Assembly (NCBI GenBank): GCA_030323885.1
Contig: CM059188.1
Location: 114,246,776-114,310,775 of the forward strand
Reading direction: 5' to 3'
Length of the DNA: 64,000 bases
From: Branchipolynoe longqiensis
Taxonomy: Eukaryota > Annelida > Polychaeta > Phyllodocida > Polynoidae
The notes under the pieces were generated by a model. The model had not been told where the DNA came from, made no database searches, and saw only the letters and a list, made by a program, of their open reading frames with translations. Shown piece after piece: positions 5,201 to 63,700 of this stretch (the stretch's first letter is position 1; the number at the start of each line of letters is the position of its first letter). A program made the translations under genes and the position numbers.

Positions 5201-7298
5201 GTCATGGTGCCGGCAACCTGGTCTCCTAGTGAGGCAGCGCTATAAAGTTACCATGAGTACACACTGTCACAAGTTGGTACCCGTCCTGATATGACTTTAA
5301 ATGTTGTTATGATATAAAACAACAATAAACAACATAATCAAGATGCTATGAAAGTAATTCCTTTATTTTAGTCATTTAAAGTTGCATAGTCCAATGGTTT
5401 GGAGTTTCTGTAATTTTCTCAAATAAATACATTAGGTTGATATGACCTTAGATGTTAGATGACCTTCGACACTACAGGTTTCTCCAGTAACAGGTTCTAT
5501 TAAATTGCCTCATTATTTGCTTCTGTGTGGCGACAAATGTTTGATAAGTACACAAGTATCTGAATTAGATATGTAAAATAAAATGTAGATAATTGTTTTG
5601 GTTTTAGAAATTTGATGTTTTCATCGGACTATGCAGCTTAAAAAAAATGTTTGCAAGTTAGTTTTTCTCTCTCTAAAACTCTGCTTTTTACTTTGTTAAA
5701 AGGAAGTCTCTTGGGTTAAGTAAGGCCAAATATAACAAAAAAGTTGGTGGTCATCCTTTTGATCACACAAATCAGGGTTGGGCAGGCGGTTTTATTTATA
5801 TATTCTATTTGACTGGTGTATGATGTACACGTAATACGTAACTATCATTAGTAAAGTGTGTTTTTTAATTAAAAAATCAGGGGTGGCGATTTTTCAGGCA
5901 AGAGCGGTGACGATCACCAATTACATTTTTGTTTTTGGCCTAATGTATCTGGTGAGTGCATTGTTATATGCAGAAATGCATTCCCCACCTTTGTGAACAC
6001 GTAGGGCCTCCTATGTCTTTCAGGAATGCCGATTGGGGACTGAGAGATAATGAGGATCTTGAAAAATTGGCGCAGGAAAACGGAATGGTTCTGGAAAAGA
6101 TGGTGAGTTACTCAATATGTCAATGGATATATGTATTTTTGTTTACAGTATAATCTAATAATTGAGGCAAGATGGTGGTGATGAGATGTAGCGTGGATTG
6201 ATGAAGCATACCTTTTATTTTTATTTATTTATTTTCAAGTGATTGTTTGTTTATTCTGCTCATAAAGGCATGGCCGAATGAGTTAGAGCGTCAGTCTCCC
6301 GTGTTGGTAGACCGTGGGATCGTGGCATCGTGGATTCGAAACTGGGTCGAGTCAAACCAATGACTTAAAAATTGATACCTGTCACTTCCTAGCCAGGCGC
6401 TCTACATTATTAGGATAGGGCTAGGACTGGTTGGCTCAGTGTCAGGATAATGTGACTGAGTGGGATATCAGGTCATGGTGCTGGTGGCCTGGTCTCCCAG
6501 TGGGGAAGCACTATAAGGTTACTATGATTGCGCACTGTAACAAGTCGGTACCTGTCCTGATATGACCTTAGATGTTGCTAGGATGTAAAAAAACAACAAA
6601 CAACAAGCTCATAACGGCTAAGTGCATGCACTTGACCCGTCCTGATATGACATTAGATGTTGCTAGGACGTAAAACAACAAACAAACAAACAAGCATGCA
6701 CTTGTTTTCACTTATTTGAGGTTTTTGCGAAGTGGTTTTAGTTGTTATTAAATTTATGTATTGATTTTGGTTTTAGTTCTTTGAAAAACAATTAATATAT
6801 TGACATTTAAATTTATTTATTGACATTGATTTTAGTTTGGTTAAAGAAAGTTATTTATTGACATTTAAATTGATATATTGACATTGGTTTTAGTTTGTTT
6901 AAAAAAAAATCAATATGTTGATATTTCAATTCATATATTGACATTGATTTTAGTTATTTTAAAATTTATATATTGGTATTAAAATGTATATATTGATATT
7001 GATTTTACTTATTTTAAAATTAATATATTGACATTAAAATTTAAATATTGACATTGATTTTAGCTTGTTTAAAATTTGTTTATATATTGACATTTAAATT
7101 TATATATTGACATCGATTTTTGTTGTTTTTAAATTAATGTATTGACATTTAAATGTATATATTGACATTGATTTTAGTTATTTTTAAATTTATATATTGA
7201 CATTTAAATTTAGATATTGACTAATAAAATGTTTCTCAATTCTCCTTAAGGTGGACATGCCGGCAAACAACAAGACCCTTGTGTTTCGGAAGTCTTGA
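2182..7298 (+). CDS. METTL26: METTL26-like protein (UPF0585/DUF938), 3' part, four exons
   Basis: Joining 2182-2241, 3973-4040, 6024-6102 and 7251-7298 gives 84 residues and a TGA stop. Every junction has an AG acceptor and GT donor and the phases fit (0, 2, 0). The product reads GLFKGAGHYLKPGGILATYG, then PYKIQGVISPESNLQFDQML, then NADWGLRD, and ends VDMPANNKTLVFRKS. The LKPGG, ISPESN, NADWGLRD and DMPANNK blocks are those of the METTL26 (C16orf13) family, a small Rossmann-fold SAM methyltransferase-like protein of about 200 residues whose substrate is unknown. The N-terminal half with the SAM-binding motif lies before this window. The gene runs toward HGS on the opposite strand. Function as a methyltransferase is family inference; the gene call itself is strong. 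Confidence 0.9.
2298..2640 (+). mobile_element. SINE-B copy (tRNA-derived)
   Basis: It lies in METTL26-like intron a. A perfect A box TGGCAGAGTGG occurs at about 2337-2347 with a slightly decayed B box (ggtatgtagtacgattccc). The 5' flank is a triplicated (ca)cgtgttctctgt string. Confidence 0.75.
2641..3720. other. METTL26-like intron a, mostly unrecognised
   Basis: A short direct repeat, gagcagggtaaataaattca, occurs at about 2644 and 2835. A poly-C run sits at 3366-3379 and a poly-G run at 3484-3502, separated by about 105 bp, which could pair. No coding signal was seen. Confidence 0.5.
3722..3972. other. METTL26-like intron a, 3' part
   Basis: It contains an inverted short stretch tgccgtagcactggtcttcc, related to aagaccagtgcattagcact at about 36049 and a similar piece at 59310. 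This is a dispersed repeat of unknown type. Nothing else was recognised. Confidence 0.4.
3973..4040 (+). CDS. METTL26: METTL26-like exon b
   Basis: A 68-nt exon entering in phase 0 and leaving in phase 2. The acceptor is gttttcttccag and the donor is GTAAGT at 4041. It encodes PYKIQGVISPESNLQFDQML followed by RQ and two bases of a Gln codon. The P-Y-x(3)-G-x-I-S-P-E-S-N block is a family hallmark. Confidence 0.9.
4068..4268 (+). mobile_element. tRNA-headed repeat of another type
   Basis: The first 80 bp match the SINE-A head (ggcgcggtagcataatcggc, gaaggtcgggagttcagttc). The following 110 bp (aagttattatcggctccgat onward) do not match the SINE-A body. It is either a chimeric SINE or a distinct family using the same promoter. 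It starts 28 bp after an exon donor of the METTL26-like gene. Confidence 0.55.
4326..4645. repeat. Inverted/direct repeat cluster rich in GCCGCC
   Basis: Four related blocks containing ggcgttaatatcgcttcgat and ttaatttgaccaaatttcac occur at about 4358, 4410, 4486 (inverted) and 4600. The outer arms cgccgccgatgcgg and ccgcatcggcgg are complementary. This is probably a palindromic TIR element. Confidence 0.55.
4646..4925 (+). other. Unrecognised sequence plus SINE-A fragment
   Basis: From about 4862 there is a SINE-A piece (gtcgactcaaaccaatgact to cagcattaataggaga). It contains two copies of aacac(c/t)gctccatgcata (about 4758 and 4828). The rest was not recognised. Confidence 0.5.
5015..5336 (+). 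mobile_element. SINE-A copy, full length
   Basis: The head ggacgcggtgaccgaatcaa carries the A box, followed by the body and a gttgttatgatataaaacaa tail. It is more diverged than most copies. Confidence 0.8.
5376..5641. mobile_element. TTAA-flanked TIR element, internally shortened
   Basis: The ends AGTTGCATAGTCCAATGG and catcggactatgcagct are inverted repeats and lie between TTAA tetranucleotides (5376, 5638). About 80 bp of the family consensus is missing from the middle. Confidence 0.75.
5721..5943. mobile_element. GGCCAAA...TTGGTGATC TIR element
   Basis: It starts taaggccaaatataacaaaa and ends ttttggcctaa, with inner arms gttggtggtcatcc and cgatcaccaatt. Related copies lie at 10490-10845, 11186-11237 and 11807-12167. 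Confidence 0.65.
6024..6102 (+). CDS. METTL26: METTL26-like exon c
   Basis: A 79-nt exon completing the split Gln codon. The acceptor is ctatgtctttcag and the donor is GTGAGT at 6103. It encodes NADWGLRDNEDLEKLA... to VLEKM, matching the conserved PEWGLRD-type motif of METTL26 proteins. Confidence 0.9.
6266..6695 (+). mobile_element. SINE-A copy plus duplicated tail
   Basis: The head ggcatggccgaatgagttag is closer to a Leu/Ser-type tRNA start than in other copies, with gattcgaaactgg as B box. The full body ends near 6612. A second tail piece, cgtcctgatatgac to aaacaaacaaac, follows at 6648-6695. Confidence 0.8.
6735..7235. repeat. AT-rich minisatellite in the last METTL26-like intron
   Basis: About eight diverged units of tatattgacatt(t/g)aaattta and ttgattttagttatttt, with a composite period near 60 bp. 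It ends about 15 nt before the terminal-exon acceptor, so it forms most of the upstream splice-site neighbourhood. Confidence 0.7.
7251..7298 (+). CDS. METTL26: METTL26-like terminal exon d
   Basis: The acceptor is tctcaattctccttaag. It encodes VDMPANNKTLVFRKS and then TGA at 7296-7298. The DMPANNK...VFRK ending is the conserved C-terminus of this family, which fixes the end of the gene. Confidence 0.9.
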   Translation: MDMPANNKTLVFRKS

Positions 7299-22869: not shown

Positions 22870-23460
22870 CCATTGTCTAGTGTGCATGTCTGGTTGGTGC
22901 CATGAATCAGACAGAACGTGGTAACAGTCATGTGCTTTCATTTTAACTGTTGGGTGCTTGGCATGAATCAGATAGACCGTTGTATCCTAACAGTCATGTG
23001 CTTTCATTTTGACTCGGGTTCGTGGCATGAATCAGACAGACCATTTTAACCTAACAGTCATGTGCTTTCATTTAGACTCGGGTTCGTGGCATGAATCAGA
23101 CAGACCATTTTAACCTAACAGTCATGTGCTTTCATTTAGACTACAGTAATTGTCCATTGTTTTCATTTTAACTGTCCGGCTCGTGGCAGGAATCCGACAG
23201 ACCGTGGTAGCCTAACAGTCATGTGCTTTCATTTTAACTCTCAGGTTTGTGGCATGAATCAGACAGACCGCAGTAATTGGTCACATGTTTTCGTTTTAAC
23301 TCTCAGGTTTGTGGCATGAATCAGACAGACCATGGTAACCTAACGGTCATGTTCTTTCATTCTGACGTCGAGTTTGTGGCATGAATCAGAGAGACTGCAG
23401 TAACGGGTCGTGTGCTTTCATTTTGACTGTTGAGCCAGTGGCATAGATCAGAACGGTCTT
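22870..23460. repeat. Minisatellite, ~62-bp period
   Basis: About nine units containing gtggcatgaatcagacagac, taacctaacagtcatgtgc and tttcatttt. Units vary in length and order, so it is an old array. Confidence 0.75.
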
Positions 23461-24733: not shown

Positions 24734-25017
24734 CTAGTCGAAGGAGATGAGCTGTGCCAGGTCCGATTGGTGCGATCCCTGTTGTTGCGGTTGACTGCCA
24801 TGAGGCCCGGCTGCAGGAGGCCCTCCCGCCGGGGGCCCGCCCGCTGGGGGGGCTGCAGGAGGGGGCGCTCCGGGCGGCATGGCGCCCCCTGGTCCCGGCT
24901 GCTGGAACTGCCCACTCATGTATGGCCCGGTAGGTGGCGCCATGGGCTGCTGGTCGACCTGGTCCGGCTGTTGCTGGAACTGGGCAGGGGTCTGCCCTGG
25001 TGCGGCAGGAGCCATGC
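24734..25017 (-). CDS. HGS: HGS terminal exon 13 of window (clathrin box)
   Basis: The acceptor tatggcatttcag precedes it. Two bases complete a Gly codon, then 93 residues from MAPAAPGQTPAQFQQQPDQV to SDLAQLISFD and a TAG at 24734-24736. The C-terminal LISFD is the clathrin-box motif conserved in human Hrs (QLISFD). Confidence 0.96.
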
Positions 25018-28000
25018 CTGAAATGCCATATAGATACTGATAGTATAATAAACTATTTCACCCAGCCTTCGGACACTTTCTCTAATGGGTTTGTTCAACA
25101 GCCCTGTCACAGGACAAGGTCTGTGTGAGAGAGAGAGAATTTGGTGGTTTGTTTGAAATCTTTACGGTTACTGGCTGCAAAAACTGCAGCATTAGGTACA
25201 GGCACTGATAAATCGGTCCAGTGGAAACTTTAGTGGAGGGGTAATAAAAGTGACTTGAGTCCGGCCGCCATAGGGGAGGAGAGGTGGGAAGGGAAAGAGG
25301 GGTTTCCAGCGAATAAGAAAGTGCGGCAGTGAAAGAAAGGGCAGCACCCAAGCTAGATCAAAGGATTCACCCTATACTTGTAGTACACGGGTGAACGACA
25401 ACGTTGTGTAAATACGGGCGAAAATAGCTTTAGTATGGAACAGGAAGTAGAATGCCTGCCTCCAGTATCAAATGGGTACTTATATCGGCAGAGTTGGTGA
25501 AATGGGAGAGAATGCAAAAAGACAAGATGGCGGCAATGGAACGCCGTCGATTTCACCTTTAAATTCTATTAAACTATATGTTTTATTATATTTTTCAGCT
25601 CAAAGGTAGCGGGGAAATATGAATATATATATAAAGAATAAGTATTGCTTCTTAGATTGTGAAATTAGGCTCTCATTTCATTTGCCCATATTTTCGAACG
25701 CTTTTATATAGGGCTGGTATTCACCCGTGTACTGCGATTACAGGGTGAATACTTTTATCTCCACCCAAGCAAACACTCCACCCTACCATGGGAGGGCGGG
25801 GGGGGGGGGGGGAGAAGAGGAGGGTAGTCTGAAGGAGAAGGAAAGAGAAGTGAGGAGAGTTGAGTCAAAGAATCATGACTCCTAGCTCTGTGGTGACAAG
25901 TCAGCGAGGAGTCGTCACAAACATAACAAGAGGTTAGAAAGTGAAAAGCCAACCGGGCCTCTCCCTGCAGTGTTTTCAGAGATCAAACCAGGAGGAGGCC
26001 GGCAGCTTGAGAGGAGAGAGAAGAGAGTGGACAAAGAGGTGTCCGAACAGCAAGTGCTCACCGTGCATGTATGGTCCCTGGCTGTAGTCCATCCCTCCCG
26101 GTGGAACATAGCCCTGGGGCAGCGGCGGGCCCTGTTGGGGCTGCGGTGGGCCCTGTTGGGGTTGTGGTGGGCCCTGCTGGGGCGGTCCCTGTTGGGGCGG
26201 TGGGCCTTGAATGGGGAGGCCCTGAGGAGGCTGTGGCGGCACACCCATCTGCGACTGGCCGGCTGGCGGCTGGAACTGGCCGCTCTCCCCGCCCATGACC
26301 GGCTGCGGGTACTGGGTGGTAGGCTGGTAGGCGGTCTGCGGAGGGAAGCCTCCCGGCGCGTTGTACATAGAAGGCCCGCCGACCGGCCCCATCGGCCCGG
26401 CGGCGCCCGGAGGCCCGGCGCCTGGGGGCCCGGTGCCCGGCAGGTGTGCCTGGGGATTGTCCTGGCTCTGGTAATAGGTCTGCTGAGGGTGTGGGTGGTG
26501 CAGGGGTGAACCCTCCAACGATCCTCCAGGACTGAACGCCTGCTGGCCATACATCTACAAGACAGAGGAGACAAAGTCTTTAATTTTACCAGCGACCCAC
26601 CAGGACTGAACGCCTGCTTGCCATACATCTACAAGGTGGAGGAGGACAAGGTCTTTAATTTTACCAGCGACCCACCAGGACTGAACGCCTGCTTGCCATA
26701 CATCTACAAGACGGAGGAGGAAATGGTCTTTAATTTTACCAGCAACCCACCAGGACTGAACGCCTGCTTGCCATACACCTACAAGGTGGAGGAGGACAAG
26801 GTCTTTAATTTTTACCAGCGACTCACCAGGACTGAACGCCTGCTTGCCATACATCTACAAGACAGAGGACAAAGTCTTTAATTTTACCAGCAACCCACCA
26901 GGACTGAACGCCTGCTTGCCATACATCTACAAGGTGGAGGAGGACAAGGTCTTTAATTTTTACCAGCGACACACCAGGACTGAACGCCTGCTTGCCATAC
27001 ATCTACAAGACGGAGGAGGACAAGGTCTTTAATTTTACCAGCAACCCACCAGGACTGAACGCCTGCTTGCCGTACATCTACAAGACAGAGGAGACAAAGT
27101 CTTTAATTTTACCAGCAACCCACCAGGACTGAACGCCTGCTTGCCATACATCTACAAGACAGAGGACAAAGTCTTTAATTTTACCAGCAACCCACCAGGA
27201 CTGAACGCCTGCTTGCCGTACATCTACACGACAGAGGAGACAAAGTCTTTAATTTTACCAGCGACCCTCCAGGACTGAACGCCTGCTGGCCGTACATCTA
27301 CAAGACAGAGGAGACAAAGTCTTTAATTTTACCAGCGACCCTCCAGGACTGAACGCCTGCTTGCCATACATCTACAAGGTGGAGGAGGACAAGGTCTTTA
27401 ATTTTACCAGCGACTCACCAGGACTGAACGCCTGCTTGCCATACATCTACAAGGTGGAGGAGGACAAGGTCTTTAATTTTACCAGCAACCCACTAGGACT
27501 GAACGCCTGCTTGCCATACATCTACAAGACGGAGGAGGACAAGGTCTTTAATTTTACCAGCGACCCACTAGGACTGAACGCCTGCTTGCCATACATCTAC
27601 AAGACAGAGGACAAAGTCTTTAATTTTACCAGCGACCCACCAGGACTGAACGCCTGCTGGCCGTACATCTACAAGACAGAGGAGACAAAGTCTTTAATTT
27701 TACCAGCGACCCTCCAGGACTGAACGCCTGCTTGCCATACATCTACAAGGTGGAGGAGGACAAGGTCTTTAATTTTACCAGCAACCCACTAGGACTGAAC
27801 GCCTGCTTGCCATACATCTACAAGACAGAGGACAAAGTCTTTAATTTTACCAGCGACCCACCAGGACTGAACGCCTGCTGGCCGTACATCTACAAGACAG
27901 AGGAGACAAAGTCTTTAATTTTACCAGCGACCCTCCAGGACTGAACGCCTGCTTGCCATACATCTACAAGGTGGAGGAGGACAAGGTCTTTAATTTTACC

Positions 28001-30709
28001 AGCGACTCACCAGGACTGAACACCTGCTTGCCATACATCTACAAGGTGGAGGAGGACAAGGTCTTTAATTTTACCAGCAACCCACTAGGACTGAACGCCT
28101 GCTTGCCATACATCTACAAGACGGAGGAGGACAAGGTCTTTAATTTTACCAGCGACCCACTAGGACTGAACGCCTGCTTGCCATACATCTACAAGACGGA
28201 GGAGGACAGTCTTTAATTTTACCAGCGACCCACCAGGACTGAACGCCTGCTTGCCATACATCTACAAGGTGGTGGAGGACAATATCTTTAATATTACCAG
28301 CGACCTACTAGGATTGAACGTCTGCTGGCCATACATCTACAAGACGGAGGGGGAAAAGGTCTTTAATTTTATTAGCGACCCACCAGAACTGAACGCCTGC
28401 TGGCCATATATCTACAAGACAGAGTCGGACAAGGTGTCTATTTAGTCTTGAAAGCCTTCACCGTTTACGTAACATTCCTGGTTAGGGGGGGGCTGTTCAA
28501 ATATTACGCAAACACAGGGTCCATACACACGTGAAGACATGGAATTCAAGGCCATTTCAAGGCTGTTTTTGATAGGAATTCAAGACTATTTTCATTTGGA
28601 TTTCCCGGAAAAAACAAGAATGTTGAATGCCAATTTCGGATTGATTTAGATCAGCGGGGACAGTTAAATTGAATTCTATGCTATTGCTAGTGACACTACT
28701 GACTACACAGCTCACCTACAGATGTGTCTGATGCTGGTGGTAGTGACATTACTGACAACGCATCTTACCTGCGGGGGTCCTTGGGGCTGAGTGTAGCCAT
28801 ACTGCTGCATAACTCGCATCTGTTGCATTTGTTTCTGTTGCTCCAATCTCAACGCCATCTCACGCTCCTGTTCCTGCATCCGTTGCAAGGCGAGTTGTCG
28901 CTGGTACTCCAAATATTCCTGTAATAATTATTTTACGAACTGATACTGGAGTTTGGATAAACAAATACACTGCAATGAACAAATATTCTTTAATTGCGAT
29001 GTTTATTTAAAAATTTCATCGACACAAAGCAAAGCTTGTTTTATTTAACAACGCATCGAGAGCACATTGCTCTTTATCATTGGCTATTGGATGTCAAACA
29101 TATGGTCATTGTGACATATTTCTTTGGAGGAAACCTGCTGCCGCCACATAGGCTACTCTTTCCGATAAGTTTGACATTAACAGATAAACTTACTTGAACC
29201 GCTTTCAATAACCAGGATATAACTATCTTCTTGTGTTGGCCACTCGTGGCTTACACATGCTTTTCTGCTCAAGGGGGAACCTCCCCCTGAATGTATTGGG
29301 TGTCAGTCCCCACTGACACTCAAACACATTTTACTAAGTTGCGTTGATTTTTTGGCCCTGCGCCAACAGTTCTACACTGCAGACAGTATGCATGACCTTT
29401 TTACTAAGGTAAAACAGGAAAACATTTTAGCCTTTTTGAGGGCAGCTGGACTGTACCACCTTATATAGTTTACTAAATGGATTCTATTAATTATTAATGA
29501 AACTTTTCTTTTTCTATGGGAATTTGTTTCCCTTGACCACAGATATATGATTGTGAGCTTTCTAATTTAATTAGTGTCTATTGGCACATAATTGATTGTC
29601 TGCTTTTACATGTAAAAGCGATGGTTTGAACAAAAAACAAACATTTCTCGCCGTGAATATGGCCTATGCTGCCGACACGGCGTAAAGCAACCACCAATCA
29701 ATCATCAATCAATCAATCAATCAATCTTAGTATTAGAGATATGCGTAATGTTTGTACTTCAACAGATATTACATTTGTTAGACGATACTTAAAATGCCAC
29801 TACGCCAGACAGACCAGTGATTAGAATGTCACCTCCCAATTAGGCTTTAATTGTAAAAATTCCTCGGACAGAATCAGGTCTGCAGGGAGAAAAAGTAAGT
29901 TAAATGGTTCTGCATATCCAAACAATCCTTTATTTACTTCACCTGAAATATCATTTATCTCTATTTGTTAATCAACAACGATAACAAATATATATAATAT
30001 ATTTCAAAATAAAATAGTGGAGAGATTGCAGACACCTATATTTCAAATCATATAAATATATGTACAGCCTTCTGTGCATTGGTATCACATATCTTTTGTC
30101 TAACACATAGTTTAGGACTCGGTGGGGGCGGTCAGGCGGGCAGGAGGCGGTTGGGGCTAAGAGGGTAGTCAGGATGGGGATTTAACAACACCGAAGAAAA
30201 ATACCGTAAAATTCAAGAACATTCTCCGGTACTCAAACCAAAAATATAAATTCAAAAATATTAAAGACTCAGGGATGAAAGTGGTCTCCGGGAAAAAAAG
30301 CGGAAATGCTGATATTCTCCCATAGGTTTAACATTGTCAGGGAATCGCGGAAAATTCCCGGAACTCGGGTTTTAAATATATTGGTATCTGTTGAAAGTGC
30401 CTCACCGTTTGATGTTTGTTGTTGTTTTACGTCCTAGCAACATCTAAGGTCATATCAGGACGGGTACCGACTTGTGACAGTGCGCACTCATGGCGACTTT
30501 ATAGTGCTGTCTCACTGGGAAACCAGGCCGCCGGGACCATGACCTGGTATCCCACTCAGTCACATTATCCTGACACTGAGCACACCAGTCGCACCGTTTG
30601 AAGCATGTATTAGTAGTGTACGCTGATAGTGCTGCAATGCTTGGAGCATTTATTAATATTAGTAGTGTACGCTGATAGTGCTGCAGCATCAGCATCATCA
30701 AAGAAGAGG

Positions 30710-45700: not shown

Positions 45701-48700
45701 ATCGGGACGTACTGCAGTGTGCGTACACAACATGGAGCGGGTCGGGGTGCCCGGTGTCGCAGTTTGAGCGCCCTGCCAGTGGTTGTATACTTTTTTTGTA
45801 AAATAGATTTAAAAGCTTTCATTGGATCGATTAAAAATATCTTAATGCGCAATTGAAGAGGAAGATCTAAGAGCAATTTACTCTGAAAGTATTAAAAACA
45901 GAGATAATAGTGAAAGTTGGGATATTCTGAGTGTCAGTGCCAGTGTTAGCCTTACCAGATCATGGCCTCAAAAACTATTTTCGCAAAATAAATTCAAGAA
46001 CTTCCAATTGGCTGATTAAAAAAAAAGCTGATTGTGAAATTGTAGAGAAAGATCTGAACTATTTAATAGAAACAAGAGAAATTTGCTTTCAAAGCACCCA
46101 AAATCACAAATTACTGTGATAGTTAGGGTGGTTTTAATCTTGTCTCTATCCACGCATGCGCAGAAGCAACAGAAGGGCGCTCAAACTGGCAGGGCGCTCA
46201 AACTGCGACACCGGCTGACTCAGTGACTGACCTTTGGTCGGGTTTAGGCTTCACACAGGTTAGAGAACTTATACATGTTTACACGGCTGTGTAGTGCATG
46301 GACACTCACTGTAACCACATGTCGCTGTCCGCAGTGACCCGTGACCCTGTGACCCCGCTCACACTCACTCCGCTACAACTATTATATAAACAGTTGTATT
46401 GGTCCCCGAGATGACCCGCCCGAAACTTATCGTCTCAGCAAGCGGCTTAGCGGGGCTACATAACAGCAACTTGACCCCGTTCCTGGCCTATGACGCTGTT
46501 ATTTATTCGTGGTGGTAGTGGTGGGGGTGGGGGTGGGGAAGGGGTAGGGGGGAGGGGAGGAGGGCAGGGGGGAAGGGAAGGCGGAGGAGGGGGAGGGGAG
46601 GGAGAGGGGGGAGGGGAGGTAGAGGGGGGAGGAGGAAGAGATGGAGCATTGGTTGATTGTTGGAGTTTTATTTCCTGGCAACATCTAAGGTCATCAGAAC
46701 GGGTAGGCCTACTGACTTGTGACAGTGTGCACTCATGGCAACTTTATAGTGTTGCCCCACTTGGAAATCAGGCCACCAGAACCATGACCCGATATCCCAC
46801 TCAGTCACATTATCCTGATAATGAGCTAACCAGTCTTTGCCCTATCCTAATAATACAGAGTGCCTGGCTAAGAAGTGACAAGTATCAATTTTATAAGTCA
46901 TTGGTTTGACTCGACCGGGAACGGAACTCCCCATCTCCCAAACACGAGGCTCGTGCTCTACCGATTTGGCCACCACGCCCGGTCCAGGAGGAGAAGAGGA
47001 AGGGGAATGGGAAGGGAAAGGGGAATGCAAAGGAGGAGGAAGAAGAGGAGGAAGAAGAGGACGAAGAGGAAGAGAAGAACAGACCACCCACACACCACAA
47101 CATGCTAACAGAACACCCACTCACCACATCCTGCTAACAGACCACCCACTCACCACAACCTAACAGGCCACCCACTCACCACAAACTAACAGGCCACCCA
47201 CTCACCACAAACTAACAGGCCACCCACTCACCACAACCTGCTAACAGACCACCCACTCACCACAGCCTGCTAACAGGCAACCCACTCACCACAACCTAAC
47301 AGGCCACCCACTCACCACAACCTAGCAGGCCACCCACTCACCACAAACTAACAGGCCACCCACTCACCACAACCTGCTAACAGACCACCCACTCACCACA
47401 ACCTAACACGCCACCCACTCACTATAACCTAACAGGCCACCCACTCACCACAACCTAACAGGCCACCCACCCACTATAACCTAACAGGCCACCCACTCAC
47501 CACAACCTAACAGGCCACCCACTCACTATAACCTAACAGGCCACCCACTCACCACAACCTAACAGGCCACCCACCCACTAACCACAGCCTGCTAACAGAC
47601 CACCCACTCACCACAGACTGCTAACAGACCACCCACTAATCACAACCTGCAAACAGACCACCCACTCACCACAACCTAACAGACCACCCACTTACCACAA
47701 CCTAACAGGCCACCCACTCACCACAGCCTAACAAACCACCCACTAACGACAGCCTGCTAACAAACCACCCACTAACCACAGCCTGCTAACAAACCACCCA
47801 CTAACCACAGCCTGCTATCAGACCACCCACTCACCACAACCTGGTAATAGGCCACCAATAAAAATACAACCATTAGAAACACTGTCACTGACAAAACTGT
47901 CCGAACATGTGTTTACAAATACAAATCATCTGAACAATGTTTGCCTGTACTGGCTGCTTAATCTACATAATGGAAAATATGTAAATAAACTCATAAGGCA
48001 AATCAATAAATAAACCAGAAATAGATCACCTACTCTGGGTACAACCGTGTCTCAGCTTGAACAGCGCAATACACAAACGTATACAAAGGACGGCTCAAGG
48101 GAACCCAGCATGATGACGTCACGGAATCCCCGTTGAGTAATACACCTCGTGCTTCTTAGTGGGTGAGTGGGCAAGTACGACATGGCCCAAATCAAGCACA
48201 TGGGCATGTGCAAATGCCACCTGCTTACACACCACACTCGCCTGACTATAACGAACCCTGCTCAAGTGCCACTCCTTGATCGAGTGGCTAGGCATACGTA
48301 CGAGCGTAGATTTAGGATCTAATCGCTAAGTCTGACGTCAACAGTTCCTGGTTGAACTATATAGATCCTTTTCAATGTTTATAAACATTGTGTATGCGCG
48401 CGCAGCTTGGCTGCAGAACAAAGGCACACTGCCATTGAGTTTGCCGATACGCGCAGTGCAAAACGTCAATTTTATTCAAAATTAATAGAAATGCAGAATC
48501 CTAACCATATAAATTTAATATAATCTCTTTGGTAAACATATTTTCGGTATATGTTCCGAGCAGTTTGTTTCTAGGTGGTGTAGTTTTAGAGATATTTGAC
48601 TTTTTCTGTATGAAGATTGCTCACAGTCATTGACAATGTATTGAGTTTGCCGATACGCACAGTGCAACACGTAAATTTTATTCAAAATTAATAGAAATGC

Positions 48701-54700: not shown

Positions 54701-57700
54701 GTGGGGAAAGTTTAATGGAATTCGAGGCTTTTCAAGACTAATTACCCAAAATAGGTTAAATTCAAGGCTTTTCAAATGGGGAAAGTGAAGTTCAAGACTT
54801 TCTAGACTTTCCAGGCCCCGTACGGACCCTGCAAGCCTAACATAGGTAGTACCCCACAACTTGGGGGCTACCAAATAACTACAAGTAAATAATACGTGGA
54901 TATTTTATACTCCACATAACTGTCAACATTTGAAAAGAGGAAAGCATAATCTTTATCATGTGAATGGCGACATATTGCCTGAATCGCAACACATTGCGCA
55001 AAGAGTAAACTAGTAAGTGTTTTAGTAGACATGATTGGGCAAAAATCAGTCTTTATTTTAGTGACGAATGAAAAAAAATCCTTCCAGTCAGCATTTGTTG
55101 TTGTTGTTGTGATGGGTGTATTTATGCTGCCCATAACGGTTAAGTCTAATGACTTGTTTTCGCTGCTAGACAGTAATAGTCTTGTGACTCCCCTTCTTTT
55201 CATCACTTTCAGTTGTTGTGTAGCCAACTACTGCATGCATTCTTTCTGTTTGTAAGCATTCTCCCAGATCCCCCAAACCTCCGTGAGTTTGTTTGTTCTA
55301 CAATCGGATAATTGTTGGTTACCAATAGCTAATTTCTCTGAATGCCTTCACCTTGCTGTGTTAGTGGTCATTAGGTTTGATTTTAAGTTGCTTGAATTAT
55401 CCGTGTATTTTCTATTTATTTATCTTTATTTTTTAATTAATTTTATTTGTTGTTGTCATTAGTCTAGCAGTGCATTTAGCTCTCTTTAAATTAATGTTTT
55501 ATATGTTTCTATTGCCAAAATTAATTTTGGGAAAGTTATATATGGTTATTGAATGGGCCAAGTGGAATAAGGTGGATTTATCATAGTGTTTCAGAGGTCC
55601 GACATAATAGTGTAATGAAAGGCAGAAAACCATATTGACTCCGCAGAAATCATAATGGTTGGCAGCTCTGCCAGCGACCGAACAGTACACATATCTGGAA
55701 ACAGCTGATACAATTGTAAAGTTTCTTGTCATTTAGCGGGTACTCACTTGTTGAGGGTATCGAAGCAGGTCTCACAGACGCGAACCTCACGCTCGATACC
55801 GAAGCGTGGGATGATGGAGTTCTTAGATGAACACTTGCTGCAAAACACCTGCCCGCAGTTACGGCAATGATGCTGCAATAAAGAACAGACCAGTTCAAAC
55901 ACTCGCACCATCTAGTAATAACCGTCTTTGTTCTTCACAAATATGGGCAAGATGGCGCCACTGGTAAAGTGTCACATCTTATGTCACATTACCCTGATAC
56001 TATGCTAACCAGTTCTTGCCCTATCCTATTAATGCCAATCACCAGACTAGGAAGCGACGAGTATCAATTATATAAGTCATTGGTTTGACTCGACCTGGAA
56101 TCGAACCCTGATCTCCCGCACGGGAAGCCTGCGCTCTACAGATTCGGCCACCGCGTCCGGTTATATAATCAATCATCAATGTGTAGTATATATACCACTG
56201 GCTCAGTAGTCATGCTCTACAGATTCGGCCACCGCGTACTGTTATATAATCAATCATCAATGTGTAGTATACCACTGGCCCAGTAGTCATTCTCTACAGA
56301 TTCGGCCACCGCGTACAGTTATATAATCAATCATCAATGTGTAGTATATATACCACTGGCTCAGTAGTCATGCTCTACAGATTCGGCCACCGCGTACTGT
56401 TATATAATCAATCATCAATGTGTAGTATACCACTGGCCCAGTAGTCATTCTCTACAGATTCGGCCACCGCGTACTGTTATATAATCAATCATCAATGTGT
56501 AGTATACCACTGGCCCAGTAGTCATTCTCTACAGATTCGGCCACCGCGTACTGTTATATAATCAATCATCAATGTGTAGTATACCACTGGCCCAGTAGTC
56601 ATTCTCTACAGATTCGGCCACCGCGTAGTTATATAATCAATCATCAATGTGTAGTATACCACTGGTCCAGTAGTCATGCTCTACAGATTCGGCCACCGTG
56701 TCCGGTTAGATAATCAATCATCGATGTGTAGTTTAGGTATTCCAAGTCATTTTCACAATTCAACAGAAAGTACCATATTTTGATATAGTTCAACAGGTCT
56801 TACCAGTAGAAGTAAAATGACACAAAGTTGATTAAAATCGGATGATTAGTTAAAAGGTTATTCGCTTTTTAATATGGACAAAAATAATGACAAATTCAGC
56901 TATTTTAGCATTTTGCATGAAACCCATATTTCAGACCTCAATAATAGACTACATCACGGTTCCGACTGCGCATGCGCTGAAAACGGCGTTGGGAGCAAAG
57001 CAAAGGCGTACGGCCATTGAGTTTGCCAATACGTGCAGTAAAAAACGTCAGTTTTATTCAAAATTAATAGAAATCCAAAACCCTAACCATATCAATTTAA
57101 CATAATCTTTTTGTTAAACATGTTTTCTATATGTGTTCCAAGCAGTTTGTCTCTAGGTGGTGTGGTTTTATCAATATTTTACTTTTTCTGTATGGAGATT
57201 GCTCACTGCCATTGACAATGCATTGAGTACTCTTGCTATGGCTCTAACACTAGTCTGAGTGCCTAGATCTTTCTAAATCTAAATGCACATGGCATAAGAT
57301 GTGCTGATTATATTGATGTAAGTGCAATTCTGGATAAAAGATTAATATCTTAATTTATTATATATATTTTTTTAGTTAGTATTATATGTTTCAAACAAGA
57401 GCTGAGATGAGCTGAAACTTGCACATTTCATAGCTGCACCCAGTGTATTAGCATGTGCCATGTGCTTTTGGGGGGTTTGTTTTGCTCTGACCCATCCCAC
57501 AATGCACTGCGCCGCTGGAACCGTGATGTAGTCTATTAAAAAATTAATGGCCACATGAACTTGTATTTCAGGAATACCTGTTATCTATATACATATATCA
57601 AGTCTATATTTTGTCAGAGTAATGGCATAATTATGTTTCGAGATATTGGCAATTCAAAATGACAAAAAACACAAATTGCCACTTGTCAATATGAGAAATT

Positions 57701-60700
57701 GAGGTATGAGTTACATAAATGCTTATATTTAAAGAAATACACAACCAATATCCTTGAAACTTCACCTGACTACCCAGAACATCGTGTAGTAAAAATTAGT
57801 TACCACAAACAAACAAATATTATTATAGTTTCAGAATAATCATGATAATTGTTGAGAAATTTGACATAAATTTTGATTTTGCATACCAATTAAGGGGTGG
57901 GATTTACACTTTCGGCTGTAGTTTGAAAAGTATACATCCGATTTTCCTAAAATTGCAAGCAGCTCTTAATAGCATGCTTTACAACTTAGTAATTCAAATA
58001 TAATATAAATGACATTTTTAGTAATTCAATGTGTCAATTAATTAAATACAAAACTGTAGCTGCAATATACATAAAACCAGAAACTCATGAATGTCATTCA
58101 ATGATCAACTGAAAATTGCATTATGTGCAACCAAATACACTTGAACTTGGTACTTGTATTAGGGGAAATCTCAAGTTTCTAGCTGTAAATTCCAGGAGAG
58201 ACATAACTTCATCATCTGCAAAAATAAAAATGTTGTCTAACTTAGAGACTTGCTTTTTGTTTGTTTGTTGTTGTTTTACGTCCTAGCAACATCTAAGGTC
58301 ATATTAGGACGGATACTGACTTGTGACAGTACGCACTCATGGCGATTTTATAGTGCTGCCCCATTGCAAAATCAGGCCACTGGCACCATGACCCGATATC
58401 CCACTCAGTCACATTATCCTGACACCAAGCTAACCAGCCCTTGCCCTATCCTAATAATGCCGAGCACCAGGTTAGGAAGCGACAAGTATAAATATTGAAG
58501 TCATTGGTTTGACTCGACCGGGAACCGAACTCGCAAACTCCCGATCTTCCGCATGCGAGGCCTGTGCTCTACCGATTCGGCCACCGCGCCCAGTGTGTTA
58601 GAGACTTGCAAATCCGCGTGAACAAGTCCTCCCGTATCGCCCCATAGGAAAAAGTTTACCATGTGCAGCATTGCAGTGTGAGAACAACTCATATAAAAGA
58701 GAGTTTTTCTTATGTTTTATCTAAGTACAGCACAAATGTGGAATGATAATTCAAATGTTTAAAATATCAACATTCTGGTAGGTCATTTTCCAGGAAAGAA
58801 TATGTGACAGTTCAGCTGAGACAAGAACTAAACAGTCACCAAACTTTCAGACCTCGGCTATGCTAATTGGTAAATGGCCCCCATATAAAATTGATATAAT
58901 ATGTTTGTTAAGCAAAAAGGCAAAAAGAGTAAAAGAAATAACAACTACTAAAGTATACCCACCACCCTATAACACCTGACTAAACCAATAAAACATATAC
59001 TACTGACAAAGCTATAGTTGACTTAAGACAATTTAAATGAGTCGTGCAACCATTATTTGCATAATCCAAAATCCACGACTACTTGTATCAGCAAGTCATG
59101 CCCATTATATTAATGTCTCCTCACAGGTATGATCATCAAATCACTGATATAGTCTAAAGGTAAATGGCTATTCTCCAGTCTACATGTGCAAAATAAGATC
59201 CCCACTATATTTGTAATGCCTCATTTTAACCTACTACTGTCTATATTGTTCATACCATCGCATCGTCTCATCCATAAATAGTTCATATGCACTATAATTG
59301 TTAAGACCGGAAGACCAGCGCCTCGGTGCTGAAAAAAGATGTTATTCAACTGGAATAAAAATTTTAACAAAAAAAAAAAGCATGAGATGGGAACAGGTGT
59401 CAGTCAAGTTGTATCGCCTATTAAAATGTTGATACTATTCGTGGTAATTCATGTTCTGCATTAAAATATTGATGCATACTACTGTGAGCGTGATGGACGG
59501 GGATGGGCGGCTGGAAAAGTAATACGCTTTGTATGATAGTGAAAATGTTGAAAACATCTGATGACCCCATAAAGTTGCATAGTCCGATGAAAACATTAAA
59601 TCTTCAAAACCAAAACAGTGATCTAGATTTGATTCTACATATTTCCCTTAGATCTGGTGCACTTGTCAAATATTTGTCACCACATGGAATGTAATACCGA
59701 GCCAATTTAATAGAACATTTTATTGCAGAAGCCCGCACAGGGGGCCCGCGAGGTACATGCTGGACCGCACCCACCCCCACCCCAGGAGAGGAGGGGGGGA
59801 AGGACACTCCAGAGCTTATTACATGCGATAATGGGATTATCACTAACCTTACAACAACATAAATAAATAAATAAATAAAAGCATACCTTGCGTTGGACCA
59901 TGGTAAACTGGACGCGACAGCGGTGGCAGCATTCGCCATCCTTCCACTCTGGTGCCTTCTCAGACAGGAACATGGCATCAGCCTCCTTAAGGGTGGGGAA
60001 CGTGTGGCCCTCCATCTTCAGTAGGTGGAACGTATCTAGCACCGCCTTGTACGATGCCTCGTTGCGGAACGCATGTGCCCAAGTCTGAACCAGTTCTAGC
60101 AGCTTACCTTTCACAGGATCACCGCGCACCTGCAACAAGCAAAGTTGCACCATTTTATTAACACTGTTACTAATCGCCTTCGAAATGAGGCTGGTCCGAG
60201 CCAAGTGAGAGCAAAGTGACACCATTTACTAACACTCTGTTAATAACATCCTTTTGAATTGAGGCTTGTCTGAGCAAAGTCGCACCATTTACTAACACTC
60301 CGTTACTAACAGCCTTCAAAATGAGGCTTGTCCTAGCCAAGTGAGAGCAAAGTTGCCCCATTTACTAACACTCCGTTACTAACAGCCTTCGAAATCAGGC
60401 TTGTCCGAGCCAAGTGAGAGCAAAGTCGCACCATTTACTAACACTCCATTACTAACAGCCTTCAAAATGAGGCTTGTCCCAGCCAAGTGAGAGCAAAGTT
60501 GCACAATTTACTAACACTCCGTTACTAACAGCCTTCGAAATTAGGCTTGTCCGAGCAAAGTGAGAGCAAAGTCGCACCATTTACTAACACTCCGTTACTC
60601 ACAGCCTTCAAGATGAGGCTTATCCGAACCAACTGAGAGCAGGCAGGGACAAGCACAATATGGCTTGAGCTTTTCCATTACACAAGTGAAAATTTTGGAC

Positions 60701-63700
60701 TGAAAAAATGTTTTTCACGACTTTGTTTATTTTCCCATAGACAATTTACAATGTGTGCATGTGCGTGTGTGTATATATGCGTGTGTGTGTATATATGCGT
60801 GTGTGTGTGTGCGTGTGTGTGTGTATGTTTGAGGGTCTACACATGTAGAGATATGGAATTCAAGGCTATTTTTGATAGGAATTCATTTCCATTTGGATTT
60901 CAGGGAAAAACAACAATGGCAAAGGGCCATTTCAGACTAAATTAGATCAGTGGGGACACTTTAATGGAATTCAAAGCTTTTCAAGACTAACTACCCAAAA
61001 TAGGTTAAATTCAAGGCTTTTCAAGGCCCTGAAATGGGCCAAATGAAGTTAGACTTTTCAAGACTTTCCAGGACCCATACGGACCCTGCATTCGGTATGT
61101 GAAACATCAGTGGTGCTCACTCACAATATGACTCATATTATGAGTGCATTCCAATATTTAACCCGTGGCAGAAAACTCACCGTAATTGTATCCTTAATGA
61201 ATTCCATGAATTCTTTAGTCGCCAACTCCTGGTGAATTGAGGATCCGCAGTTTTTAACCACAGACTCCAGAACCTGAATGCAAAATGCAGTCCATGGTAA
61301 ATATGGAGATAGCAACCGCTTAATTCTGTTATTAGTGGCAAGACCAGTATTTAAACTTTTGAGCGTTGATCTATAGATGAAATGTAAAAGTACTTTAAAG
61401 CTATGGCATAAAAGCTGCACAGTCCGATGAAGCATCAAATCTTCAAAACCAAAACAATTGATCATACATATCAAACTTAGATAATGATGCATGTGTTAAA
61501 CATTTGTTGCTACATTTAAGGCAGGGATGAAAGTGATCTCCGGGAATAAAAGCAGAAATTTGTGAAGTTATCTTCAAATAATGTTGCTACAATAATATCA
61601 CATTATCCTAGTTATAGTTTTACGGGCACTAAGGAAACTGATGTGAATGTCTGCGATAACGGCCATTCTCCCAGTCTTACTCTTAGCACTGTCAGGTAAT
61701 CGTGTTAAATTCCCGGAAGCAGGGATGAAAATGGGCCCCAGCAAAACCCGAGGAAAAGAAGCCAAGATTATTACACCGACAGCGATAACGCGGATCTTCT
61801 CCCAAAGACTTATCACTTTCAGAGAATCGCGGAACAATACCGGAAGTCAGGTTTCAACTAACTTTGTTGTAACTGTATTATCGCCGATACCGAACACTTT
61901 CTTGTTTGGGCTTATCATTTATGTTCTATCTACATCAAAGCTCATATAAGAACGGGATTCAAACCACCCAACTGTTACCATATACATGTAATATTTTCTG
62001 CAATTTAACGTTAATCGGTTAATATAAAAAATCCTGAAAATCCGTGAAACCGCAGAGATCTTTCATCCTTGCTAAGGGAATGCTGAGTCAATTTAAAAGA
62101 ATCTGTTACTGCTGAAGACTATGATGTCAGAGTTTTGGCATGCATGCTTAAATTAATTCTGAATTGCTTGCACTTCAAATATCTCCAAAGTTAGCCATTT
62201 ACAATAAAAGTTACTTCAAACTAAAAAAAGGTAGACTATAACAATCAATTTAAAATATTTATCTCAGAAAGCGACAGAAACTCAAAACCATCGGACTATG
62301 CAACTTTAACTACATGGCTTGTTTTTGTTGGGTTTTTCTTTTGTATGGCCAATATAAGATAACTATAATTTATAATATAAACAAGTTGATTTTCACAGTA
62401 TCACTGTATATCTAGTCAGCTGACCATAAAGCACTGTACACTTCACCGTCAGATTCTTCACAAGCCCGTCTAATTGGAAAGCTTCGATTTCATCCAAATA
62501 GTCGCTGTCTCCCCTTACCATATATGTAAAAATACGATACCGGAGAGAATGCAGACACCTACATTTCATGTTGTGTTAGCACAGCTATCTGTGCGTTAAT
62601 ATCACTTTTCTTTTGTCTAACATATAGTTTAGGGATAGGAGACACACCTCAGGCAACTTGGTAGTGTTTATTAAAAAACTTTAAAATGATACGGACACTT
62701 TTCTTCTAAAAGACCCATCAAAATGGTAACCAAAAATCATGCCATTTCTGACTGGTAATATTGAATGGACAATTTCTAGTCATTAAGAACTGATAATGGG
62801 GTCGTCATGGGTGCAGGAAGCATATAAATGAACCTAATCACCTATACCCAAAAAGGAATTGCAAAGGTAATTAATTTCTTATGAAACTTTAGTGACCTAA
62901 AGATGCTGTAACGGTCGTCACCCATCGTGTCCGTCACAGTGACGAACGTTTAAAGGCACACACAACAGTATGAATAAATAAAATCACCATGTCTTTCTTT
63001 CAGTTTCAATGACTTTATACATTGCAATAACAATCCAATGGATATTTTAAGCATAGTGTCGTGGGGGTGATGAAAATGGGAAATACTGTGCCTAGAGCGG
63101 GACTCGAACCCACATCTCTTTGCATTCCGGGCCAGTGTGCTAACCATTACACCACCTAGGCTCCCTGATATCAACACACTCCCCACGCCTACCTGTCTAT
63201 GTGGTTACTTGCTTGAGAGGTCAGTGCAGACCACTACACTCATCCCCCTGGAATTGTAAGTCTTGTAATGCTTACAATTACATACATACAGGCAATGCAC
63301 TAACACATACATACACAGGGTAGGTTCAACAACCATACAGCGCAAAGCTTGTACAGGATCCTGATCACGGCAACCAGTGTCGTTGGGGGTGATGAAAATG
63401 GGAAATACTGTGCCTAGAGCAGGACTCGAACCCACATCTCTTTGCATTCCAGGCCAGTGTGCTAACCATTACACCACCTAGGCTCCCTGATATCAACACA
63501 CTCCCCACGCCTACCTGTCTATGTGGTTACTTGCCTGAGAGGTCAGTGCAGACCACTACAATAGCTTGCATTGCTCTTGAAATAATGCAATTTAAATTAT
63601 TTTAGTATTAAACTATTATCTTTCTGTTATCAGGGCTGTCCTGAGATTCATAACATGAATTAAAATGAAAGGACAACCAATGTCAGAGAATAACCGCCCA

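Follow-up and report, generated by a model that had tools for sequence, protein, structure and literature searches.

How does a spliceosome deal with 25 near-identical 3′ splice sites in a row, and does the gene that carries them make use of them? This question is raised by intron 11 of the HGS gene, which encodes the endosomal sorting protein Hrs, in the polynoid annelid Branchipolynoe longqiensis. The window analysed here is a 64,000-nt stretch, free of N (GenBank assembly GCA_030323885.1, contig CM059188.1, positions 114,246,776 to 114,310,775). Most of HGS lies within it, on the minus strand, as do the features of the gene given below by window position; exon numbers are those of an earlier reading made from the letters alone (the sequence-only reading). 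That reading described, within the intron, 25 tandem copies of an acceptor plus 39 coding bases, and direct reading, a script and Tandem Repeats Finder (TRF) all confirmed the description. The anatomy of the array, its single location, its neutral-looking variation and its spacing can be read directly from the DNA. We conclude that the array is probably a minisatellite born across a 3′ splice site, which would mostly be removed with intron 11, with minor, non-adjacent, in-frame inclusion of its modules and some poison products. It is probably a tolerated passenger, and probably a length-variable one, rather than a selected device.

Exon 11 (28769..28918) holds the end of the coiled coil and closes at base 28769 with a phase 0 donor, CAG/GTAAGA (the slash marks the exon border). 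Exon 12 (26062..26554), which encodes the Pro/Gln-rich tail, begins at base 26554, also in phase 0, with the 39 nt that are the parent of the modules (MYGQQAFSPGGSL). Intron 11 between them is 2214 nt long (26555..28768) and hosts the array at 26555..28411, in which 25 head-to-tail units of 72-76 nt precede the native exon 12 copy as a 26th. Each unit consists of a module and an inter-module part of 33-37 nt with a GT, a TTAAA branch-like motif, a pyrimidine tract and a TAG. The modules start at 28411, 28336, 28261, 28188, 28113, 28038, 27963, 27889, 27817, 27742, 27668, 27596, 27521, 27446, 27371, 27297, 27223, 27151, 27077, 27002, 26926, 26854, 26778, 26703 and 26628. Module 1 (28373..28411; IYGQQAFSSGGSL) lies 357 nt from exon 11 and is preceded by the original intron end (28412..28441), with a branch-like CTAAA, a pyrimidine tract and a TTGTAG acceptor; module 25 (26590..26628; MYGKQAFSPGGSL) lies 35 nt from exon 12.

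Every module is exactly 39 nt long and stop-free (25/25). The phase 0 geometry that the sequence-only reading gave to the modules and to exons 11 and 12 is supported by the sequence. The AG acceptor is intact in all 25 units, as TAG. A GT follows 24 of the 25 modules, the exception being unit 1 with AT, and in agreement with the donor-like end noted earlier in nearly all units it is exactly GTAAAAT in 21, with GTAAAAA in units 20 and 22 and GTAATAT in unit 2. Because the units are copies of one another, the intact AGs (25) and GTs (24) cannot be counted as independent observations. At the position where exon 12 encodes Q, 20 of the 25 modules encode K. TRF reported a period of 75, 25.9 copies, 90% matches and a score of 2991, and on this score we rejected a chance or simple repeat; near-identical head-to-tail units with block-wise copying are the pattern of a minisatellite. 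A genome search with the unit gave 26 matches (the 25 units and the exon 12 copy), all at this place on its 124-Mb contig, and a dispersed or mobile repeat was therefore rejected; the match counts of this search are lower bounds, and it skips very common words. Sixteen of the inter-module parts are 33 or 36 nt long; their only in-frame stop is the TAG of the acceptor itself, so that retention of one would end translation exactly at the splice site. No structured RNA was found at 25000-30000 by Rfam at the gathering score.

The junctions of the units suggest how the array arose. The exon 12 copy reads ...TCGTTG and then GAGGGTTC, the same point in array units reads ...TCGCTGG followed by TAAAATTAAAGAC, and the intron upstream of module 1 reads GACTAAATAGACACCTTG. 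The unit seems to begin near the intronic TAAA and to end at the 40th exonic base, so that the copied segment reaches from the intron into the exon and brings the acceptor signals with it. This points to a tandem duplication across the 3′ splice site of exon 12, taking in the end of intron 11 and the first 40 exonic bases. At the new junction, exonic ...TTGG joined to intronic TAAA... would have given each copy an acceptor, a 39-nt phase 0 module and a GT. With the exonic G fused to the intronic T as a donor, each copy could in principle serve as a cassette exon of 39 nt; that 39 is divisible by three would be a one-in-three accident. Duplication over the acceptor, with a GT created at the junction, is the origin that had been proposed from the letters alone, and the junction sequences support it. 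Subsequent growth probably proceeded by unequal exchange. Among the 25 units 19 are distinct, and in the unit string ABCDEFGHEGHDEIGJKLMNOPQRS units 4-5 are repeated as 12-13 and units 7-8 as 10-11. A 220-nt stretch of the array recurs unchanged at an offset of 221 nt, and TRF reports an additional 445-bp period; together with the recurring blocks, this is the pattern left by unequal exchange or block slippage. The unit at the edge, unit 1, is the poorest match to the consensus (86%).

Whether the modules could be used depends on their splice signals and on their spacing. Donors were scored with a human matrix. The array donors, CTG/GTAAAA with no G at +5, score 1.11 in 23 of 25 units, and six of eight HGS donors score 3.89-7.01. 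The pyrimidine fraction of the array acceptors is 0.75-0.94 (mostly 0.88), against 0.88 for exon 12 and 0.50-0.75 for five other HGS acceptors. Introns between neighbouring modules would be only 33-37 nt long, and in the six of the 25 that were scanned, the sole branch-like motif places its A at position 10 or 11. The minimum donor-to-branchpoint distance in human constructs is ~46 nt (PMC11291888), 43-nt introns are spliced in human, and a screen of human introns of 37-65 nt found splicing evidence for 15 of 22 (PMC4463651), so the spacing rule is strong but not absolute. Given introns of 33-37 nt with ~10 nt to the likely branch point, neighbouring modules, or module 25 and exon 12, would hardly be joinable, and the earlier statement that any number of modules can be spliced in is not supported. 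This genome is long-introned: matches to myosin-head exons left 21 gaps of 430 to 14,361 nt, with a median of 1462 (67 of 68 rows used), in a survey that could overlook a very short intron lying within a single match.

If one module is skipped, the introns become 107-112 nt long, and inclusion of non-adjacent modules is feasible by intron length. Modules 2-24 allow 75,025 neighbour-free sets, all of which keep the frame, and the largest neighbour-free inclusion is 12 modules, or 156 residues at 13 residues each. Where the acceptor of a module is used and its donor is not, 24 of the 25 modules lead to a stop 23-99 residues on, and read-through from module 25 runs out of frame through exon 12. 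Since the donors are weak and the acceptors strong, a captured, unspliced module would usually meet a stop. We propose that most transcripts join exon 11 directly to exon 12, that a minority may gain one module, or a few that are not neighbours, in frame and up to the limit of 12, and that captured modules with an unused weak donor would mostly run to a stop and be lost via nonsense-mediated decay.

Variable columns number 14 of 39 in the modules and 12 of 36 in the intron part when counted by base (37 alignment columns; 16 variable with gaps counted). The module variants comprise 12 nonsynonymous, 3 synonymous and 0 stop changes, for expected fractions of 0.705, 0.256 and 0.038; the probability of at least 3 synonymous changes is 0.78 and that of no stop is 0.56. 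Thus, no coding selection is detectable on the 25 modules, the amino-acid ratio and the absence of stops both fitting neutrality. With variation as dense in the modules as in the intron parts and a neutral ratio, we rejected coding selection as a reading, although the power of this test is low because the copies are young.

To place the array among relatives we used a set of 172 homologous proteins, of which the 119 with at least 560 aa were checked for repeats. Of these 119, 111 have an anchor motif downstream of the coiled coil; at the protein level, none of the 111 has a module-size repeat near it, and 16 have short repeats of 6-9 residues. Module words occur in two of the 172 homologues, and P0132 and P0003 each have one copy that closely resembles the module (FSPGGSLEGSPLHHPHPQQ and QAFSPGGSLDGSP, respectively). 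In this comparison of proteins, the beginning of exon 12 is therefore old, and the array looks like a local novelty. Among the best 120 of 1293 matches, 52 further ones and those of the antisense-translation search, we recognised no protein or transcript from this species. The best identity over the conserved core was 75.6% (first 100 aligned homologues). In a tree with 33 homologues, the HGS of the window stands beside homologue P0024 with a support of 0.91, near Owenia, Lingula and Tubulanus, a position that speaks for a lophotrochozoan and probably against a mollusc; this tree is weak, with nemerteans split and P0110, one of 34 sequences intended, missing from the alignment.

Several points weigh against an array that is mostly removed and only tolerated. 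Every splicing outcome described here is predicted from the DNA, and the spacing rule is derived from human cells. Direct splicing from exon 11 to exon 12 is not assured, since 25 acceptors that rival the real one in pyrimidine content lie upstream of it. The remaining two of the eight HGS donors score 0.44 and -0.32, below the array donors; these exon borders are our own reading, and if they are right, array donors fall within what the gene may use. Finally, the 25 modules have no indels, as compared with at least four length changes in the intron part. This absence fits a constraint on module length, the chance of such a pattern under uniform indels being about 0.05 (0.48^4, for four independent events), an argument weakened by the indel-prone pyrimidine and A runs of the intron part.

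Of the other explanations, the most novel, which we consider unlikely, is a variable number tandem repeat acting as an exon array, in which each unit is a complete in-frame cassette exon and individuals whose arrays differ in length would differ in their possible Hrs isoforms, whether selected or not. This is broader than a selected isoform device (see below), because no selection is needed. We regard as rather unlikely an inert intronic minisatellite, whose modules are never used; exon 12 would then be recognised by how long it is and by the strength of its donor, and the GTs would be accidental. The neutral variation, the shortness of the neighbour introns and the finding that 6.9% of 3950 GT sites on the same strand of the window match or exceed an array-strength donor would all be expected of an inert repeat; however, with acceptors as pyrimidine-rich as the real one, zero use across 25 copies would be surprising. 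Distinctly doubtful is a device for making isoforms, in which the modules are regulated cassette exons that vary the length of Hrs between the coiled coil and the Pro/Gln tail under a no-neighbours rule, the array being retained for that purpose. Such a device would account for stop-free, indel-free phase 0-0 modules of 39 nt with nearly complete splice sites, skip-one introns are long enough for it, and the insertion point falls within a variable linker in aligned homologues. However, module variation bears no sign of selection, the donors are weak, intact sites are expected in young copies regardless, and the anchor-bearing homologues share no module-size repeat. Improbable, lastly, is a decoy or poison array that lowers or tunes HGS output through strong acceptors competing with exon 12: 25 acceptors like that of exon 12, weak donors and the stops in 24 of 25 read-throughs would suit it, but selection should have acted against the loss of an essential ESCRT-0 product, and the array nevertheless expanded to 25 units. 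Cassette and decoy use, both raised by the sequence-only reading, are supported as possibilities only.

The host gene is HGS. A search of the 1.85-Gb genome with P0024 gave 27 matches, which comprise the collinear HGS exons and weaker matches elsewhere (35-56% identity) to the FYVE or VHS part. HGS is single-copy in this search; a second copy, or a retrocopy of a spliced form, was rejected, the matches elsewhere being only the weak ones. An earlier exon (P0024 residues 12-42) lies outside the window on the same contig. VHS exon matches from the P0024 search are at about 63772-63864 and 61175-61291, followed by a VHS exon at 60129-59887. Pfam gave 128.7 bits for Hrs_helical and 65.6 bits for FYVE, both above the cut-off, and 23.2 bits for VHS, below its cut-off of 29.8 because the query held only the last part of that domain; the remaining part falls in collinear exons on the same contig (P0024 search). 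VHS, FYVE and Hrs_helical are thus present in order. Between FYVE and the helical core, the gene aligns to the UIM part of P0024, a label that has no Pfam match here. The exon preceding exon 11 matches human Hrs chain 3f1i_H; we take 3f1i to be the Hrs-STAM core, and the array therefore lies downstream of that core, consistent with the position after the helical core assigned to it earlier. Hrs itself is presumably cytosolic. The last HGS exon (24734..25017; coding part and stop) ends in LISFD, and the other HGS exons read are not micro-exons.

The HGS locus is repeat-rich. A second minisatellite in the gene, at 60138-60641 (periods 63-73, ~7 copies), almost reaches the acceptor of the exon at 60129. 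Its units contain TTAGTAA and pyrimidine stretches resembling the end of that intron, but no exon part. Other tandem arrays in and around the gene lie at 6748-7221, 22922-23452, 47078-47842 and 56134-56732 (periods 55, 62-66, 26 and 77). On the plus strand, 26510-28445 has antisense open stretches of up to 156 aa with the repeat SDPPGLNACLPYIYKxEEDKVFNFT. A search with a translation of this kind gave 7 candidates, none of them at E up to 10, and antisense coding was set aside, the open stretches being probably a by-product of the 72/75-nt periods.

The array is a natural experiment, with the spliceosome facing 25 near-identical acceptors in a row, and it bears on the birth of exons and introns by duplication. 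The competition between acceptors, the lower limit of intron length and the working of exon definition could all be read from this one gene, and if modules do enter the mRNA, a repeat of variable length would supply an ESCRT-0 subunit with different protein isoforms. The literature searched, with most subscription journals outside it, yielded no HGS gene or 25-copy array of such a kind, and nothing on HGS splice variants was apparent in the titles and abstract openings. Tandemly repeated 81-base exons in Schistosoma were reportedly described by Davis in 1988.

The closest system found is the potato RdRp gene, in which an intron was gained by one tandem duplication over an intron-exon border and splicing was proven by 106 RNA-Seq reads (PMC4974935). 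There, as here, the copied segment is the end of an intron plus the start of the next exon; it brings along its acceptor, branch site and pyrimidine tract, and the donor comes from the exonic side. However, potato has one duplication and a cryptic exonic GTAAG donor, whereas here there are 25 copies and a GT made at the junction, with inter-copy introns of only 33-37 nt and splicing that is predicted. The AGGT model of intron gain (Rogers/Hellsten), which the same paper describes, also derives splice sites from tandem duplication, but of an exonic AGGT segment, whereas the piece duplicated here already contains a real acceptor (PMC4974935). The micro-exon genes of Schistosoma share short exons, tandem exon repetition and protein variation by alternative splicing, the last being a prediction here. 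Their products, however, are secreted and bear a signal peptide, and their introns reach 5 kb, a long-intron layout that modules 33-37 nt apart do not share (PMC10526429); the HGS array repeats a single, nearly identical module with very short spacers in the gene of an endosomal sorting protein. Dscam likewise has tandemly duplicated exons in one gene, but they are mutually exclusive, diverged and used, in contrast to the near-identical 39-nt putative exons of HGS (PMC1397879). The C19MC microRNA cluster has repeated exons that are alternatively joined according to some studies, but its host transcript is non-coding, with intronic microRNAs, whereas HGS is protein-coding (PMC7692494). We conclude that the layout of the HGS array is real and unusual, and that the event which explains it is of a known kind but has gone well beyond the cases found.

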